From positions 1 through 41,892 of the forward strand of contig JAGWAN010000015.1 in NCBI GenBank assembly GCA_021296345.1: DNA of 41,892 bases, read 5' to 3'. The notes below the pieces were generated by a model, which saw only the letters and a program-made list of their open reading frames with translations, made no database searches and was not told the DNA's origin. A program made the position numbers and the translations under genes. Shown here in pieces: positions 20,419 to 27,276 of the stretch. The DNA is from Acidimicrobiia bacterium. Lineage in GTDB: Bacteria; Actinomycetota; Acidimicrobiia; Spongiisociales; Spongiisociaceae. How positions within the stretch are numbered: the first letter of the stretch is position 1; each line of letters starts with the position of its first letter.

Positions 20419-22285
20419 GGAGGGAAGCGTAGAGGTTCTCGGCCACCCGTTGTGGCACCACTTCGGCCAGCTGGCTCAGGCTGGCCTCGCGCATCTTCTT
20501 GACCGAGCCGAACGTCCGGACAAGGGCTTTCTTGCGAGCCGGTCCCACCCCGTCCACATCGTCGAGGATGGAATCGATCATCCGCTTCCCGCGGAGTTGG
20601 CGGTGATACATGAGGGCGAAGCGATGGGCCTCGTCACGGACCCGTTGGAGCAGGTGGAGTGCGGGCTGGTCTCTCGGGATGACGATGGGCTCGACCTGGC
20701 CCGGGACGAAAACCTCCTCCATGCGCTTCGCGAGTCCGGCCACGGGTATGTCGAGATCGAGCTGGGCGAGCACCTCAACCGCCCTGGCGATCTGGCCCGG
20801 CCCCCCGTCGATCAGAACCAGTGATGGCGGGTAGGCGAACTTACCTCGTTCGGAAACGGGTTTGTCGAGATCGGCGAGATAGGCGGTGAAGCGCCGGCGA
20901 ACGACCTCCTCCATTGAGGAGAAGTCATCCTGCCCGGTCACGGTCCGGATCCGGAACCTTCGATAGTCAGCCCGCCGGGGAAGCCCGTCTTCAAGGACCA
21001 CCATCGAGGCCACAGTATGGCGCCCCTGGATCGTCGAGATGTCGTAGGCCTCGATCCGTAGCGGCGGCTCCGGAAGGGCGAGGGCGGTCTGGAGGCTGCG
21101 CAGGTCGCGGGCTCGGGCGTTGTGGTCCGACCGGCGCCTCAGCCGATGCCGCAGGAGAGCCTCGGAAGCGTTGGTCTTGGCGGTCTCCAGCAACCGGCGT
21201 TTGGGGCCCCGCTTGGGAGATCTGAGGGTTACCCGAGCACCCCGTCGCTGGGACAGGAGATCCGACCAGGGCTCGTCTTCGGGAGGCAGGGCTTCCACCA
21301 GGATAAGACGTGGCGGCGGCGAGGACTCATCGTAGAGATCCCGCAGCACCGTGGCGGTGACCTGGGAGGGCGTTACGTCCTCGACCTTGTCGAGGATGGA
21401 CCCCAACCGTCCCACGATGCGGCCGTTTCGCACCTTGAGCACCTGCACGGAGGTCTCGAGATCGGTTTCGTCCGTGGCGATCAGGTCGAAGTCCTCGCGG
21501 CGTTCGGTGACTACCTCCTGGCGGGCCACCGCGCGCCTTACATCCTGAGCCTGGTCGCGCAGGCGGGCGGCTCGTTCATAGTCGAGTTGCTCTGACGCTT
21601 CGAGCATCCGGGCTTCTATGCGGTCGATCAGGTCGTCAGCGCTGCCCGAGAGCACCTGGTCCAGGCCGCTCACGTACCCGGCGTAGGTATCCGGATCGAC
21701 ATAGCCGACGCAGGGCGCCGAACATCGCTCGATCTCGTACTCGATGCATGGCCTGCCCTTGAGCTCGTGACGCCGGAACACCGTATCGGAGCAGGTGCGG
21801 ATGGGCAGCGATTTGAGCAGCAGGTCCAGGGTGTTGCGGATGGCATATGCATGGGCGAAGGGGCCGAAGTATTGGATGCCCTTGCGCTTCGCCCCCCGAA
21901 CCACCCGGGCCCGCGGCCACCGGTCGGACCGGGTTAGGGCTAGGTAGGGGTAGCTCTTGTCGTCTCGCAGCCGGATATTGAAGCGGGGCCGGTGCTCCTT
22001 GATCAGGGAGAACTCCAGGAACAAGGCCGCTACCTCGCTGTCCACCACGATCCATTCCACCCCTTCGGACGCCTCGACCATGGCCCGGGTCCGGGGGGGC
22101 AGATCCCCGGTGAAGTAGGTGGCGACCCGCTTGCGGAGAGAGTTGGCCTTGCCCACATAGTTCACCCGGCCGTGGCGATCACGGAACAGGTAGGCGCCGG
22201 GAGCGTCCGGTATCTCGGCCGGCAGGGGACGGTTCACAGGGAGTTTTCCATCGGCGTCGAACAGCCCATCAACCGAACGCGCCAA
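20411..22285 (-). CDS. uvrC: Excinuclease ABC subunit C
   Basis: Dual-incision nuclease of nucleotide excision repair, up to 624 residues. GIY-YIG domain (IPDAPGAYLFRD...YVGKANSLRKRV), Cys cluster (CIEYEIERCSAPC), UVR domain (LDYERAARLRDQ), RNase H-like nuclease (EAYDISTIQG, LVLIDGGPGQ, RDEAHRFAL supply Asp/Asp/His) and a C-terminal helix-hairpin-helix (DVDGVGPARKKALVRTFGSV). The longest start is a TTG at 22285 overlapping the channel gene by 17 bp. A GTG at 22237, just after the channel stop and eight residues before IPD, is an equally good choice. Confidence 0.95.
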   Translation of the reverse strand: MARSVDGLFDADGKLPVNRPLPAEIPDAPGAYLFRDRHGRVNYVGKANSLRKRVATYFTGDLPPRTRAMVEASEGVEWIVVDSEVAALFLEFSLIKEHRPRFNIRLRDDKSYPYLALTRSDRWPRARVVRGAKRKGIQYFGPFAHAYAIRNTLDLLLKSLPIRTCSDTVFRRHELKGRPCIEYEIERCSAPCVGYVDPDTYAGYVSGLDQVLSGSADDLIDRIEARMLEASEQLDYERAARLRDQAQDVRRAVARQEVVTERREDFDLIATDETDLETSVQVLKVRNGRIVGRLGSILDKVEDVTPSQVTATVLRDLYDESSPPPRLILVEALPPEDEPWSDLLSQRRGARVTLRSPKRGPKRRLLETAKTNASEALLRHRLRRRSDHNARARDLRSLQTALALPEPPLRIEAYDISTIQGRHTVASMVVLEDGLPRRADYRRFRIRTVTGQDDFSSMEEVVRRRFTAYLADLDKPVSERGKFAYPPSLVLIDGGPGQIARAVEVLAQLDLDIPVAGLAKRMEEVFVPGQVEPIVIPRDQPALHLLQRVRDEAHRFALMYHRQLRGKRMIDSILDDVDGVGPARKKALVRTFGSVKKMREASLSQLAEVVPQRVAENLYASLHG

Positions 22286-24362
22286 ACCACCGGTGGTGGA
22301 GTTGCTTGTAGATGCCGGACTCGATGATGTCCAGAAGGGCCAGATCGATCCTCTCGCGTAGCTCGGTGTCGTCCTCGCTGACCATCAGCCCGTACTGGAC
22401 CTTGTCGAACAGTGGGCCGACCGTGGTCACCTTGCCCTCGCCCAGGCGCGATACGTGGAACTGGAGAACCGGCGCGTCGAACACGACCGCATCGACCTCG
22501 CCCTGCGCCAACAGATCGTATGCATGGTCGACATCGTGCACTATGACCGGGCCGACGGCGATACCGGTCAGGTAGTCGTATCCGGCCGAGTCGTGGACGG
22601 TGGCGACCCGTTTACCCGGAAGATCGGTGGGTCCGTCGATGTGGCCTCGGAGCTCGTTCACCGCCAATGACGAGGCGATGGCGGCGGTGAAGCTGGCGAA
22701 TACCAGGGTTCCGAGGGCGATCCAGATCAGGGCGAACGACCTACCCCATTTTCCGCGGGCCACCTTGTCGCCGTAACCGACCGTACTCATGGTCACGACC
22801 GACCAGTAGAACGAGTCCCAGATGCCCCGGCGGTACGGCACCGCGAAGTCCGGGTTGTGCTTCCGTTCCAACCACCAGATCAGGTGCGCGGCAACCAGAA
22901 CGGCAACCCCGAACACCACGAGCAGCCAGGGCAGGTCCGAACTCGTGATGGCTCGCAGGAAGACCAGGATGCGGCCCCATATCCCTTGGGATCCGCTGGT
23001 GGAGGTCATTATCGTGAGTCCGGTGTCGAGTAGCGGTAGCGAGAAGTCGATCACTTCTTCACGCGGGCCGGTGATGGCCACGCCCCCCAAACCCACATCG
23101 GCGACCCCACGGTTGATGTCGTCCACCTGCTTGGCAACGGTGTCGACCGCGTAGATCTCGACCGTCATGCCGAGATGGGCGGCGATCAACTCCACCAGGT
23201 CAACCTCGAAGCCGTTATAGAGATCTGCATTGTGTTGGTCGTAGATGACGAAGGGCGGAAGGGCGCGGGCGGCCACTCGGAGCACCCCACCTGCGGCCCC
23301 AGGACCAACTCCGCTGCTGCCATCCAGCGCGATCGCCTCCGAATCGGCGGCTTCGATCCACTCCGACACAACGCCTGGGTGGCGGTCCACCCACTCTTGG
23401 GCGTGCCGGCGGATGTCCTCCGGATCGCCCGCGTCACGGACCATGTGGGCGTTCTGCTCGGAGATGTCCTCAAGCGGGATGACCACTTGCTCGAGTAGCC
23501 GGCGAACGGGCGGGTTCGCTTCGAGAAAGCCGGAGTTGGCCACGGCCCTGATGTCGTTGGGGGGCCATCCCACCTGGCAGGGATCGTTGGCGCAGCCCGC
23601 TATTCCCCGTATCGACGTTTGGTCGAGAAAGGCTGACTGGTCGGGAGGGAGGGACGGGAAGGGTGTCTCCAGCCAAACCACGTCACGTCCGGGCACCAGC
23701 TCGCCGACGGTCCAGTTGGGAGTCCACGTGTAGTAGAGGACCGGCTGCCCGGCTTCGAAGCGGGTGATGGTCTCGGCTATCAGCGGGGAGTAGTCGCCCT
23801 GAACCTGCTCGACCGTGGCATCCAGTCCAAACACCTCCAGATGGTGCCCGATGACCTGGGAACAGGTCCATCCGGTCTGGCAACCGATCAGGTCGGCCCG
23901 CCCGTCTGCGTCCAGGTCGAAGAGCGCGGCGACCTCGGGATCGGCCAGGTCTCCGAGGTTGGTTATGCCGTGCGCCCCGGCCGTGGCCGCATCTATGAAA
24001 TAGCCTTGGAGCGCACCCGCGTCGACCTGCGTCCCGACCCGCTCCACGAGATCCTCTTCGATGAGACCGTCGTGGGTAGGGAACCATCCGTTAACCCAGA
24101 GATCGACCTCCCCGGCAGCCACCGCGCGGTAGAAGTCCGGGTTCTCCATGGTAACCGGGCCCTCCACGCGATACCCAAGCCGCAGGAGTAGGAGACGGTA
24201 CACCTCGGCCTGGAACCAACCGGTGTCCCAGGTCGCCCGGGCCATCCGCACCGTCTTCGCTTCTACAGGATCCTCCTCCGGCTGGCCTAGGGCAGGGAGG
24301 ACCGTTCCCATGGCCAGCAGTGCCAGAGCCGTTAGCGAGCAGACGATCAGGGTGCGGCGCAC
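22269..24362 (-). CDS. ProX-GluR0 fusion: betaine-binding domain joined to a ligand-gated K+ channel
   Basis: Single 697-residue reading frame. Signal peptide about 1-26. Residues 36-340 are a ProX/OpuAC domain: NGWFPTHD (Trp93), CQTGWTC (Cys161/Trp165/Cys167) and YYTWTPNW (Trp213) keep the three box tryptophans and disulfide known from E. coli ProX. Residues 358-457 are S1 of a type-2 binding protein, with TGPREEVIDFS carrying the Arg that in glutamate receptors holds the ligand carboxylate (Arg434). M1 at 476-497; pore 512-535 with filter TVGYGD (527-532); M2 at 543-567; S2 573-697 with VVFDAPVLQF. This is a prokaryotic ionotropic-receptor K+ channel with an extra betaine sensor. GTG start with GGAG eight bases upstream. 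Divergent from the BCCT-proX operon. Confidence 0.9.
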   Translation of the reverse strand: MRRTLIVCSLTALALLAMGTVLPALGQPEEDPVEAKTVRMARATWDTGWFQAEVYRLLLLRLGYRVEGPVTMENPDFYRAVAAGEVDLWVNGWFPTHDGLIEEDLVERVGTQVDAGALQGYFIDAATAGAHGITNLGDLADPEVAALFDLDADGRADLIGCQTGWTCSQVIGHHLEVFGLDATVEQVQGDYSPLIAETITRFEAGQPVLYYTWTPNWTVGELVPGRDVVWLETPFPSLPPDQSAFLDQTSIRGIAGCANDPCQVGWPPNDIRAVANSGFLEANPPVRRLLEQVVIPLEDISEQNAHMVRDAGDPEDIRRHAQEWVDRHPGVVSEWIEAADSEAIALDGSSGVGPGAAGGVLRVAARALPPFVIYDQHNADLYNGFEVDLVELIAAHLGMTVEIYAVDTVAKQVDDINRGVADVGLGGVAITGPREEVIDFSLPLLDTGLTIMTSTSGSQGIWGRILVFLRAITSSDLPWLLVVFGVAVLVAAHLIWWLERKHNPDFAVPYRRGIWDSFYWSVVTMSTVGYGDKVARGKWGRSFALIWIALGTLVFASFTAAIASSLAVNELRGHIDGPTDLPGKRVATVHDSAGYDYLTGIAVGPVIVHDVDHAYDLLAQGEVDAVVFDAPVLQFHVSRLGEGKVTTVGPLFDKVQYGLMVSEDDTELRERIDLALLDIIESGIYKQLHHRWFGAFG

Positions 24363-24388
24363 GATGGTCTCCGGTAGTGGTTGAGCCC

Positions 24389-24394
24389 AGGCTA
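24389..24394 (-). promoter_or_regulatory. Candidate -10 box of the betaine-sensor channel gene
   Basis: TAGCCT on the minus strand, about 27 bases before the GTG start. It lies in the ~200-bp region shared with the divergent transporter operon. No clear -35. Confidence 0.4.
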
Positions 24395-24531
24395 GCTACG
24401 TTTCCATCGCTCCTCACCGAACAAATACCCGGGTTTCCCCGATCACCCGGTCCCCTTCCTTGTATCGTGAACAGGCACAGGTCGCGCCGAAAACGGCTGC
24501 GGAACTGGCAGGCAACTGAAAGGAGGCCCGT

Positions 24532-24567
24532 ATGGTCATGAGCATCGGGAGGAGGCGCGATGGCTGA
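24532..24567 (+). CDS. 11-codon leader ORF coupled to the BCCT gene
   Basis: MVMSIGRRRDG, preceded by a strong AAAGGAGG Shine-Dalgarno. Its stop TGA (24565-24567) falls eight bases into the transporter gene in another frame, and the transporter's own GGGAGGAGG site lies inside it. The geometry suggests translational coupling or a regulatory leader rather than a functional peptide. Confidence 0.4.
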   Translation: MVMSIGRRRDG

Positions 24568-26338
24568 GAAGCAAGGCCACGACCAGGATCTCGACCTCAC
24601 CAAGATCTCCGAGGCCTACGAGGACTGGGAGAAGGACCGGGACCGCCGCCGCGAGGAAGCTATCCGGCATCGGGCGCGCTTCGAGGGTCTTCAGGTCGAT
24701 CCCGACATCGACTTCTATCCGGAGGTGGCCGACCGGGAGCCCGGTGACAAGAACATAGTCAGGTGGGGATTCGACATACATCCCCAGGTGACATTCTCTG
24801 CCGCCGGCTTCTTGCTGATCTTCATCGCCGCCACCCTGATCTTCCCGGATCAGGCAGCCGGGGTGTTCAGCGCCATCCTCAACTTCATCAACGAGAAGGT
24901 TGGCTGGCTCTACATCATCTCGTTCAACATCTTCATCGGAGCCGCTCTCTACTTCGCGTTGGGCAGGTACGGCAAGATCAGATTGGGCGGTCCGGCGGCC
25001 CTAGCGGAGTTCTCCACCCCCGCCTGGTACGCCATGTTGATCTCCGCCGGTCTCGGTATCGGTCTGATGTTCTGGGGTGTGGCAGAGCCGATCTTCCACC
25101 TGACATCACCGCCTCCCCTCTTTGACGTAGAACCCTTGACAACGGGCGCGGCCAGAGCGTCCCTAGCGACCTCCTACCTCCACTGGGGGATACATGGATG
25201 GGCGCTGTACGGCCTGGTAGCCCTCGCACTGGGGTTCTTCGCCTACAACCGGGGCCTGCCTCTGACCTTCCGATCGGTGTTCTACCCGATCCTGGGTCCG
25301 AGGATCTACGGCGGATGGGGTAATGCGATCGACGTGCTCACCGTGGTGGCCACACTCTTCGGACTGGCCACTTCGCTGGGGTTCGGCGCCTCACAGGCTG
25401 CCGCGGGCCTGCACAAGGTCTTCGGTGTCCCGGATAATCTGGGGATCCAGATACTGCTCATCGCAGGTATCACGGGGCTTGCCACCATCTCGGTTGTGGC
25501 CGGCCTGGACGCCGGGGTCAAGAGGCTCAGCGCGCTCAACGTATGGCTGGCCGCGGCCTTCCTGGTCTTCGTGCTGGCGGTGGGTCCGACCCTGCTGGTC
25601 CTCTCGCTGTACGTGGAGAGCATCGGCGTCTACATCCAGATACTGCCGGAGTTCTCCTTCTGGAACGCGGCACTGCTCGACACCCAGTGGCAGCAGTGGT
25701 GGACCATCTTCTACTGGGGATGGTGGATCTCCTGGTCGCCCTTCGTCGGCATGTTCATCGCCCGGATCTCCAAGGGGCGCTCGGTGCGGGAAATGATCAT
25801 CGGTGTGATCGTCCTTCCCTGCCTGCTGTGCTTCCTCTGGTTCGCGGTGTTCGGCGGAGCGGCCATGAACCTGCAGATAACCGGCAAACTAGACGTTGCT
25901 ACTGCAGTTAACGAAAACGTGGCCACTGCCCTGTTCGTGATGCTGGAGGCCTTCCCATGGACCTACTTCGTCTCGATTGTCGGCATCCTGTTGCTGATCT
26001 CGTTCTTCGTCACCTCGTCGGACTCGGGATCGCTGGTGGTCGACCACCTCACATCGGGAGGAAAGCTTGACTCACCCAAACCGCAGCGGGTGTTCTGGGC
26101 GCTGATGGAAGGCTTGGTGGCCATAGTGCTGCTGATCGGGGGTGGCCTGTCGGCCCTCCAGACGGCTGCCGTGGCTACCGGACTGCCCTTCCTCTTCGTG
26201 CTCCTCATCATGCTGTGGAGCCTGAAGAAGGCCTTCGACGAGGAGCTCGACCTTCTGGAGAGCCACTACGACGAGGCCATCTTCCAAGCCCAGCACAGCG
26301 GCTTGATCGAGCGGCTGGGAAGAGGAGGTGAAAAGTGA
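24560..26338 (+). CDS. BCCT-family glycine betaine/carnitine/choline transporter
   Basis: Secondary transporter of the betaine-carnitine-choline family, 592 residues, about 12 membrane helices. A charged cytoplasmic N-terminal extension (about 70 residues) precedes the membrane core. SAGLGIGLMFWGVAEP corresponds to the glycine-rich stretch of helix 3, and the family signature WTIFYWGWWISWSPFVGMFIARISKGRSVRE is intact, with aromatic-box residues Trp388, Trp389 and Trp392 in the WWISW motif. TSSDSGS in helix 10 is also conserved. Strong ribosome site GGGAGGAGG. The stop overlaps the next gene as GTGA, pairing the transporter with a solute-binding lipoprotein, which is not usual for BCCT proteins. 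Substrate inferred as glycine betaine or a relative. Confidence 0.93.
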   Translation: MAEKQGHDQDLDLTKISEAYEDWEKDRDRRREEAIRHRARFEGLQVDPDIDFYPEVADREPGDKNIVRWGFDIHPQVTFSAAGFLLIFIAATLIFPDQAAGVFSAILNFINEKVGWLYIISFNIFIGAALYFALGRYGKIRLGGPAALAEFSTPAWYAMLISAGLGIGLMFWGVAEPIFHLTSPPPLFDVEPLTTGAARASLATSYLHWGIHGWALYGLVALALGFFAYNRGLPLTFRSVFYPILGPRIYGGWGNAIDVLTVVATLFGLATSLGFGASQAAAGLHKVFGVPDNLGIQILLIAGITGLATISVVAGLDAGVKRLSALNVWLAAAFLVFVLAVGPTLLVLSLYVESIGVYIQILPEFSFWNAALLDTQWQQWWTIFYWGWWISWSPFVGMFIARISKGRSVREMIIGVIVLPCLLCFLWFAVFGGAAMNLQITGKLDVATAVNENVATALFVMLEAFPWTYFVSIVGILLLISFFVTSSDSGSLVVDHLTSGGKLDSPKPQRVFWALMEGLVAIVLLIGGGLSALQTAAVATGLPFLFVLLIMLWSLKKAFDEELDLLESHYDEAIFQAQHSGLIERLGRGGEK

Positions 26339-27276
26339 TCAAGAGATCGAGCACACTGATCGCCGCTGTCGCGGCTTTCGTGCTGGTGCTCTCGGCCTGT
26401 GCCGTCGAGGACGAAGGTGGGCCCGTGGCCATAGCCCGGGCCGACTGGAGTTCCGGCTACATGCAGGCTGCCATCTATGCGCAGCTGATCGAGGAACTCG
26501 GGCACGAGGTAACCGACCCGGCCGCTGCCGAACTGAGCCCGTATTCGTTCTATCCGGCTCTGGCTGCCGGTCAGTACGATCTGTGGGCCAATGGCTGGTT
26601 CCCGATCCACGACATCTTCTTGGAAGGCGAAAACGTGACAGGTCAGGCGGTCGATCTTCCGATCGAACCGGTGGGCTGGCAAGTGCCGGATGGAGCCGTA
26701 GACGGTCTGATGATCGACAAGGCCACCGCTGACAGCTTCGGCATCACGTCGATGGATGGCGTGGCCGCCAACGCTGGCGTCTTCGACGCGGACGGCGACG
26801 GCAAGGCTGATCTGATCGGATGCAATACCGGATGGGGATGCCACACCAGGATTGATGACCAGATCGCCAGTGAGAGCTGGGGATCCAGGGTGGAACAGAT
26901 CTCCGGTACGTACGGCGACCTGATGGGGAGCGTTGTGGACAAGGTGAAAGCCGGTCAGGCCGCACTGTTCTATGCCTGGACGCCGAACTGGACGGACAGT
27001 GTCCTGGTGCCGGGTGAGAATGCGGTTTGGCTGCAGTCCAACGTCAATGACATTCGAGCGGTGGCGAACACCGACTTCCTGGATGCCAACCCGGACATCC
27101 ACCGCCTCCTCGAGGTAGTGGCGATTCCCTATGGTGACATCCTGGCTCAAAACGCCAAGATGGCTTCTGCCGACGAGTACACAAACGCAGATGTCGAGGC
27201 TGACGCCGAGGCTTGGATCGCCAACAACCGCGCCCAGGTCGACGACTGGCTCGCGCAAGCGCGAGCCGCCGGCTGA
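26335..27276 (+). CDS. ProX-like glycine betaine-binding lipoprotein
   Basis: 313-residue substrate-binding protein of the OpuAC/ProX type. Lipobox VLSAC with Cys22 anchors it outside the membrane. YDLWANGWFPIHD (Trp88), GCNTGWGC (Cys163/Trp167/Cys169) and FYAWTPNW (Trp215) preserve the betaine box and disulfide. NDIRAVANTDFLDANP and IPYGDILAQNAKM match E. coli ProX and the N-terminal domain of the divergent channel gene, its apparent paralogue. GGAGGTGAAAA precedes the GTG, which overlaps the BCCT stop. No ABC permease or ATPase gene is nearby, so it either serves the BCCT protein or presents ligand to the channel. Confidence 0.92.
   Translation: MIKRSSTLIAAVAAFVLVLSACAVEDEGGPVAIARADWSSGYMQAAIYAQLIEELGHEVTDPAAAELSPYSFYPALAAGQYDLWANGWFPIHDIFLEGENVTGQAVDLPIEPVGWQVPDGAVDGLMIDKATADSFGITSMDGVAANAGVFDADGDGKADLIGCNTGWGCHTRIDDQIASESWGSRVEQISGTYGDLMGSVVDKVKAGQAALFYAWTPNWTDSVLVPGENAVWLQSNVNDIRAVANTDFLDANPDIHRLLEVVAIPYGDILAQNAKMASADEYTNADVEADAEAWIANNRAQVDDWLAQARAAG

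Follow-up and report, generated by a model that had tools for sequence, protein, structure and literature searches.

A ProX domain of the betaine-binding type fused to a GluR0-like potassium channel and its linkage to BCCT carrier genes

Why should a bacterial K+ channel carry a betaine-binding type of domain at its outer end, and what would such a channel do for the cell? The locus that raises this question lies in a stretch of 41,892 nucleotides from an acidimicrobiian of the order Spongiisociales (contig JAGWAN010000015.1; hereafter the window). The fused gene occupies positions 22269..24362 on the minus strand, where an open frame of 697 codons runs from a GTG start at 24362 to a stop at 22271-22269; the plus-strand translation is interrupted by stops. 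An earlier note on this DNA had given the uninterrupted frame with the right coordinates, leaving the strand unstated. The product is probably a K+ channel that is modulated by betaine and coupled to its import, for which we infer binding, gating and conductance; the order of its parts, its kept binding residues, its kept filter and a lasting linkage to a BCCT gene are established from the sequence and a structure model.

The polypeptide begins with a hydrophobic N-terminus (residues 1-28, 24279..24362), judged from hydrophobicity and sequence to be a probable signal peptide. It is followed by a ProX/OpuAC domain of the betaine-binding type (residues 36-326, 23385..24257), recognised by profiles (Pfam OpuAC, E 2.4e-50), alignment and structure comparison, and by the S1 half of an amino-acid-binding clamshell (residues 362-456, 22995..23279). 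Next come the M1 helix of the model (residues 477-499, 22866..22934), a pore helix with a TVGYGD filter (residues 510-532, 22767..22835) and the M2 helix of the model (residues 538-571, 22650..22751), and the S2 half of the clamshell (residues 573-694, 22281..22646) completes the chain, all on the minus strand. The two clamshell halves were placed by profiles, alignment and conservation, the helices by hydrophobicity and the model, and the filter by sequence, profiles and the model. SBP_bac_3 is spread across residues 362-694 (E 6.4e-23), Ion_trans_2 covers residues 487-566 (E 1.6e-15), and Lig_chan and Lig_chan-Glu_bd exceed their Pfam cut-offs.

According to profiles, hydrophobicity and the model, the membrane part, two transmembrane helices with a pore loop, lies between S1 and S2. 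The hydrophobic segments are residues 1-28, 465-500 and 540-571; with two such stretches besides the N-terminus and a chain that stops after S2, M4 is absent. ANF_receptor is absent from the Pfam matches at E up to 1, the N-terminal match being OpuAC. The structure prediction was of a monomer with a pTM of 0.48, so that the domain packing in the model is tentative; the structure comparison, whose list is filled by binding proteins, bears on the parts outside the pore. The residues singled out in the earlier note (W93, W165, W213, C161 and C167 in the outer domain, R434 in S1 and TVGYGD at 527-532) all lie where it had placed them, and its reading, in which a ProX-type domain precedes a K+ channel of the S1-M1-P-M2-S2 plan, is supported by profiles, conservation over 59 fused proteins, structure prediction and structure comparison.

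The outer domain scores 339.1 bits against the NCBIfam ProX equivalog (NF008334; cut-off 215) and poorly against the choline-binding model. The domain folds onto ProX, whose structure with glycine betaine is the best match. W93, W165 and W213 align with Trp residues of 1r9l and are presumably the three-Trp betaine box of ProX. An unassembled box had been named as a ground for doubt; the box was found to be kept among the fused homologues apart from W213, which is replaced by F or Y in 8/58 relatives, and the betaine pocket is kept across several phyla. H97 is replaced in 8/56 relatives. Whereas E. coli ProX, the glycine-betaine-binding protein of ProVWX, is a free protein of an ABC transporter, the fused domain is the outer part of a channel and is adjoined by a secondary carrier gene. 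At this locus the fused protein is no free periplasmic partner of ProVW, and the adjoining genes are uvrC-like and BCCT.

The order contains 20 full-length fused members, the window's included, with a lowest pairwise identity of 59%, and dN/dS within the ProX domain is 0.07-0.14 (six pairs); the fused gene is therefore more than chance. Fused homologues occur in several phyla, with BCCT as a recurrent neighbour, and among those that carry the fusion are the named strains Salsipaludibacter albus AS10 and Halomicronema sp. CCY15110. It had been suggested that homologues without the ProX domain, together with an assembly fusion, would speak against the proposal: GluR0-type channels of that kind do exist in numbers, but no sign of an assembly fusion was seen, and an assembly artefact is ruled out by the many separate records that carry the fusion. 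One scan of viral contigs gave two pattern matches and no relative of the fused channel. The architecture had been thought undescribed, and the matches listed in searches of the open-access literature included neither a description of a ProX-type domain fused to a GluR0-like channel nor a characterised family of this kind.

Divergently from the channel gene, across an intergenic region of 197 bases (24363..24559), runs the gene of a BCCT-family carrier of 592 aa (24560..26338, plus strand), which the earlier note had left unreported and which is the sole BCCT match in the window's genome. Its stop is overlapped by the start of a gene for a free ProX-type binding protein of 313 aa (26335..27276, plus strand), whose N-terminus looks lipoprotein-like by eye. 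Both neighbours are conserved beside the fused channel in the order and beyond, which further supports its predicted link to betaine-type transport. No shared operator was recognised in the intergenic region, and when 11 such divergent regions were aligned, it was chiefly the nearest relatives that showed conservation.

The substrate of the carrier bears on what the outer domain senses. The window's BCCT is a full-length member of the family that includes TmaT and BetP, but it is paired with a betaine-type binding protein and a channel. Among its solved relatives TmaT, a trimethylamine carrier, comes first (501 bits), followed by an unnamed BCCT and a choline carrier, with BetP behind at 298 bits; since TmaT ranks first, the substrate may not be betaine. 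The carrier at locus L103 ranks the solved relatives in the same way, and the free binding protein at L107 is nearest to OsmF and choline-type proteins. These rankings, and the variation at H97 and W213, would suit an outer domain that detects a different methylated compound (trimethylamine or its oxide, choline, carnitine or DMSP), in a module for nutrient uptake rather than osmoadaptation whose channel would still respond and balance charge. The ProX equivalog score, the poor choline-binding score and the match to ProX with glycine betaine argue against such a module, which we regard as somewhat unlikely.

In the channel core, TVGYGD is kept in 57/59 fused proteins; the two exceptions are Jiangellaceae, one of them frame-broken, and both retain the outer domain. 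R434 is kept in 59/59 and D629 in 56/58, both aligning with 2pyy; this S1 Arg and S2 Asp are the residues that hold the alpha-carboxyl and alpha-amino groups of the ligand. With R434 and T431 of S1 and D629 of S2 kept, S1S2 is predicted from sequence still to be apt for an amino-acid-like ligand, as the earlier note had proposed. The same three residues are kept in channels without the N-terminal domain (NTD), which, like the abundance of such channels, would fit an outer domain that serves assembly, trafficking or ligand gathering and leaves gating to an amino acid on S1S2, as in GluR0. This we consider unlikely: conservation of the betaine pocket is tighter than a scaffold would require, residues of S1 co-vary with the ProX domain, and the BCCT linkage is seen solely with fused channels (62 fused and 30 NTD-less loci).

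Altogether six core residues track the presence of the ProX domain. When the cores were thinned at 85% identity to 45 rows, 35 fused and 10 NTD-less rows were separated at 99. In a quick tree of 66 rows, three NTD-less cyanobacterial channels were nested inside the fused clade, and these are read as domain loss. In a careful tree of 62 rows, from which the long-branch rows L193, L177, L169 and L192 had been dropped, the fused rows form one side of a branch with support of just 84/71 (not starred), and the remaining 22 NTD-less rows are set off at 100/97.

BCCT was present on the examined stretch at 45/62 fused loci, in several gene orders, and at 0/30 NTD-less loci. A Fisher test on counts of 44/16 fused and 0/11 NTD-less loci ignores relatedness and is not leaned on. 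Seventeen of the 62 fused loci had no BCCT on the examined stretch; among 16 named ones, nine have less than 2 kb on one side, and seven (L086, L095, L099, L101, L105, L110, L124) have more than 4 kb on both. In each of seven genomes checked that lack a BCCT beside the fused channel, one is present elsewhere. Halophiles often have BCCT carriers; both genes are to be expected in salt-adapted bacteria, and a BCCT was present in 8/8 fused-channel genomes checked. Shared salt-stress regulation or cassette transfer could thus bring the genes together with no working partnership, but the adjacency at fused loci, its absence from NTD-less loci and the several gene orders make this quite improbable. 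It is highly unlikely that the fusion is mainly a membrane-tethered binding protein passing betaine to the BCCT carrier, with ion conduction minor: the carrier frequently comes with a free binding protein from the same superfamily and the two Jiangellaceae have dispensed with the filter, but the filter is kept elsewhere and the free protein is already available for that role.

For the betaine-modulated channel, the following course is proposed. The product would be one subunit of a K+-selective channel resembling GluR0. Its two soluble parts would lie outside the cell, the ProX-type domain standing ahead of an S1S2 clamshell that connects to an inverted K+ pore. Binding of betaine, or of a related compound such as proline betaine, to the ProX domain would alter the open chance of the S1S2-gated pore. 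Carriers like BetP import their substrate with Na+ and move charge; if the BCCT carrier is of this kind, its import would carry charge because Na+ enters too. The open channel would release K+, or keep the membrane potential close to the K+ equilibrium, during betaine entry, thereby balancing charge and exchanging K+, the emergency osmolyte, for betaine. The free ProX-type protein probably captures betaine and supplies the carrier with it, and a second input may come through S1S2, which may respond to a released amino acid, for example glutamate. Since Synechocystis GluR0 is interpreted by its authors as a passive K+ influx route, inward flow is also conceivable.

More tentatively, and perhaps with less than even chances, the protein could be a two-input channel, with two stacked sensors on the inverted pore, the outer one for betaine and the inner one for amino acids, releasing K+ only with the replacement osmolyte outside (perhaps with glutamate shed) and forming one unit with a BCCT that has its own binding protein. 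If this is true, bacteria would have arrived independently at the stacked two-clamshell plan, which is otherwise known from the glutamate receptors of eukaryotes. In AMPA, kainate and NMDA receptors a clamshell likewise precedes S1, but their amino-terminal domain is of the LIVBP/ANF_receptor kind, whereas the fused channel has an OpuAC domain, no M4 and a K+ filter; if the reading is right, the plan would be a parallel and not a homologue of that domain's use. Betaine-gated ion channels are found in nematodes (ACR-23, LGC-41), but these are Cys-loop channels of an unrelated pentameric fold in animals.

The GluR0-type prokaryotic receptors (Synechocystis GluR0, Nostoc GluR0) reportedly make up Group 1 of Ger et al. 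2010. They share with the fused channel the flanking S1 and S2, the K+ filter, the S1 Arg and the S2 Asp. The OpuAC domain at 36-326 sets the fused channel apart from a plain GluR0, and almost all NTD-less cores are separate in the trees from the fused cores, which have residues of their own and BCCT as the usual neighbour. GluR0 is described as lacking an N-terminal domain (PMC6385376). Expression in K+-uptake-deficient E. coli is reported to serve as a working assay for Synechocystis GluR0 (PMC13099474).

The BCCT neighbour, its overlap with the second ProX-type gene, the BCCT linkage and the six tracking core residues are new in this analysis. That a channel gene often stands beside a betaine-type transporter gene suggests cells that tie K+ flow to betaine uptake. 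We know of no channel that senses betaine for K+ shedding, for which this family is a directly testable candidate, and of no BCCT carrier that uses a binding protein, at which the pairing hints. The family also shows that prokaryotic iGluR relatives can bear an N-terminal sensor domain, and fused and NTD-less channels offer a natural series in which the communication between an upper and a lower clamshell could be studied. The shedding of K+ on the arrival of compatible solutes has been named as a step in osmoadaptation (PMC5818414).

Two smaller observations concern the neighbours and the origin of the outer domain. Among 30 other neighbouring proteins scanned from 16 loci, some of them with BCCT, only two kinds recurred besides the OpuAC proteins of L103 and L107: an EamA transporter at L101 and L108, and an ABC exporter at L094 and L096, both Halomicronema. 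In the NTD tree, the fused domains are nearer to free ProX proteins of other bacteria than to the neighbouring ProX-type protein; the idea that the outer domain is a recent duplicate of that neighbour is unsupported, as the two lie apart. The fused domains are not one clade: four label changes are needed, at least two of them forced by starred branches. One is L109, labelled free although its sequence is one half of a fused gene with a broken frame. A further one is L090 from Chloroflexi, which may represent a second fusion or domain swap, since its domain falls among free ProX proteins of Chloroflexi (88, drawn open).

The fused channel is encoded on the minus strand (22269-24362) as a single open frame of 697 codons with a GTG start at 24362, and the plus-strand reading of the same interval is broken by stops. 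The earlier note had claimed an uninterrupted frame here; this was confirmed, on the minus strand, and its residue numbers proved correct. Pfam matches were found for OpuAC (residues 36-326), Ion_trans_2 (487-566) and, scattered across 362-694, SBP_bac_3, and the Lig_chan match exceeds its cut-off. The protein scores 339 bits on the NCBIfam ProX equivalog (cut-off 215) and 36 bits on the choline-binding model (cut-off 379). In sequence, the solved structures nearest to the outer domain and to the clamshell of the core (the channel part) are, respectively, those of E. coli ProX (1r9l, 1.6e-59) and of the binding core of Nostoc GluR0 (2pyy, 3.6e-31). No description of a ProX-channel fusion was found in the open-access library searched, which agrees with the earlier note; a prior mention elsewhere may exist. 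In a 2010 survey of 100 prokaryotic relatives, the InterPro domains in the legend include no betaine-binding domain, and the words betaine and OpuAC are absent from its text (PMC2950845).

Conservation was mapped over 59 fused proteins (58 and that of the window), the denominators being proteins with a letter at the position. Of the residues singled out in the earlier note, W93 (56/56), W165 (58/58) and R434 (59/59) are invariant, and W213 is not (50 W, 7 F and 1 Y among 58). C161 (58/58), C167 (59/59) and T431 (59/59) are always kept, H97 and D629 are found in 48/56 and 56/58, and the TVGYGD filter is present in 57/59. The two filter exceptions, both Jiangellaceae, carry TPFGAGN: Haloactinopolyspora (L091:4749-6947) and Phytoactinopolyspora (L110:4494-6957), the latter additionally frame-broken within the ProX domain; either decay or a changed pore would account for them. 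Single records of broken or reduced genes were also seen at L109:4866-7081, L105:4806-7072 and L124:4968-6031. Among 20 members of the order, invariant positions amount to 128/309 in the ProX domain, 31/98 in S1, 36/129 in S2, 28/35 in the filter-bearing stretch 501-535 and 2/16 in the ProX-S1 linker. In six pairs, dN/dS was 0.07-0.14 for the ProX domain, 0.08-0.17 for S1, 0.04-0.22 for the membrane part and 0.11-0.40 for S2.

Divergent from the channel, with 197 bases between, lies a BCCT-family carrier gene (24560-26338, plus strand, 611 bits), whose stop is overlapped by a gene (26335-27276, plus strand) for a ProX-type protein of 313 aa that begins like a lipoprotein. The closest solved relative of the carrier is TmaT, a trimethylamine carrier (501 bits), followed by an unnamed BCCT (369), a choline carrier (350) and BetP (298). 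Betaine is therefore a likely but not certain substrate. The carrier is the single BCCT match in the genome assembly (2.83 Mb, 95% complete), which holds three OpuAC matches: the fused channel, the 313-aa protein and one elsewhere. In the window the free binding protein belongs to the E. coli ProX kind; the pairing extends to two further subclasses, the Bacillus OpuAC kind (L103) and the OsmF kind (L107), and three genomes (L026, L027, L028) have BCCT-ProX pairs without a channel on the retrieved stretch (4.6-10 kb). A BCCT carrier assisted by a binding protein (24560-27276) would, if true, be unusual.

A full-length fused copy occurs in 20/138 genomes of the order, the window's included, and one further genome has it as two fragments at contig ends. 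In all 21 of these genomes the channel is accompanied next door by the BCCT and ProX-type genes, and the module stays intact although its flanks vary from family to family; in the window's family they are relatives of its uvrC, rapZ and uvrA, names read off translations. A BCCT gene lies on the retrieved stretch at 44/60 fused loci from named genomes, or 45/62 with L176 (BCCT present) and L194 (absent), compared with 0/11 beside GluR0-type channels lacking the ProX domain (NTD-less) in the class and 0/19 beside those from the phylum and cyanobacteria, on control stretches of 3.6-11 kb; these counts include many close relatives, and the cyanobacterial control retrieved 18/46 matches, 17 of them NTD-less. 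Linkage was found in the main Acidimicrobiia group, Salsipaludibacter/Nitriliruptorales, a distant Acidimicrobiales group, Chloroflexi, Kiritimatiellae and deltaproteobacteria, with divergent, convergent or same-strand arrangements (BCCT upstream or downstream), and not on the retrieved stretches of cyanobacteria, Desulfosarcinaceae, Jiangellaceae or Bacteroidetes. The 16 named loci that lack a BCCT there comprise nine with <2 kb on one side and seven with >4 kb on both (L086, L095, L099, L101, L105, L110 and L124, the last a remnant). BCCT was present somewhere in all eight genomes checked via fused loci, seven of which lack it on the retrieved stretch.

The domain architecture, the kept pockets and filter and the lasting linkage to a betaine-type carrier are shown by sequence and model. 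In osmoadaptation, K+ import is described as coming first, compatible solutes next and export of the imported K+ last (PMC5818414), with comparable initial steps in PMC7876524. GluR0 is reported to carry K+ with both termini outside and to influence cell volume after KCl upshock; it is interpreted there as a route of passive K+ influx, with glutamate set free by cells as a possible activator (PMC13099474). In the fused channel, external betaine would tune the pore, and K+ would exit or clamp the voltage while the carrier imports betaine. BetP couples betaine transport to two Na+ and responds to internal K+ by activation; such activation of the carrier, if as in BetP, would close a loop. A betaine-tuned K+ channel working with a betaine-importing carrier is on balance the reading we favour; a stricter gate with betaine and an amino acid as two inputs is more doubtful.

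The domain combination suggested for searching in the earlier note was found in several phyla. Among the best 80 of 109 relatives in named genomes (76 distinct loci), both parts share a frame at 58, some truncated. Titles include Acidimicrobiia, Nitriliruptorales, Salsipaludibacter, two Jiangellaceae, Desulfosarcinaceae, other deltaproteobacteria (an Olavius symbiont among them), several cyanobacteria, and one record each of Chloroflexi, Bacteroidetes and Kiritimatiellae; since most records are metagenome bins, phyla with one record could be misbinned. In evenly drawn samples, the core matched in 38/395 genomes of the class (E 1e-40; 39 matches, 26 in fused-length frames, one split in G026, 12 shorter), 10/396 of the phylum and 44/244 cyanobacteria, where 2/46 matches are of fused length, one belonging to the genome used as the centre of that search.

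In core trees, fused channels cluster apart from nearly all NTD-less ones (support 99 in one tree). A second tree joins them with three cyanobacterial NTD-less rows (100), and in a further tree the other 22 NTD-less rows split off (100/97). Those three, the nearest NTD-less channels (L179, L180, L182), may have lost the domain, as one tree has it, or, as a sister group, may never have had it, as in another (84/71). The outer-domain tree is weaker; fused domains do not form one clade there, and the Chloroflexi member (L090) groups with free ProX proteins. The simplest account is a single gain and subsequent spread; several gains may also have occurred, and transfer between phyla is likely.

In a thinned set of 37 fused and 26 NTD-less channels, residues shared by <1/4 of the latter were V406, A410, K411 and R418 (each 37/37 in the fused set), Y374 (36/37) and E570 (35/37); position 411 is E, D, N or A among 23 NTD-less letters. 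The three close NTD-less channels also lack A410, Y374, K411, R418 and E570, yet have Y382, the seventh position through this filter. The six residues may contact the ProX domain or reflect an altered ligand site. Among related proteins, a Chloroflexaceae double binding protein (L114:294-2465) consists of a ProX domain fused to a binding protein of the amino-acid type (SBP_bac_3) and gives no match to a pore, and Marinimicrococcus flavescens has six consecutive ProX-type frames on the same strand (L116:2861-10621).
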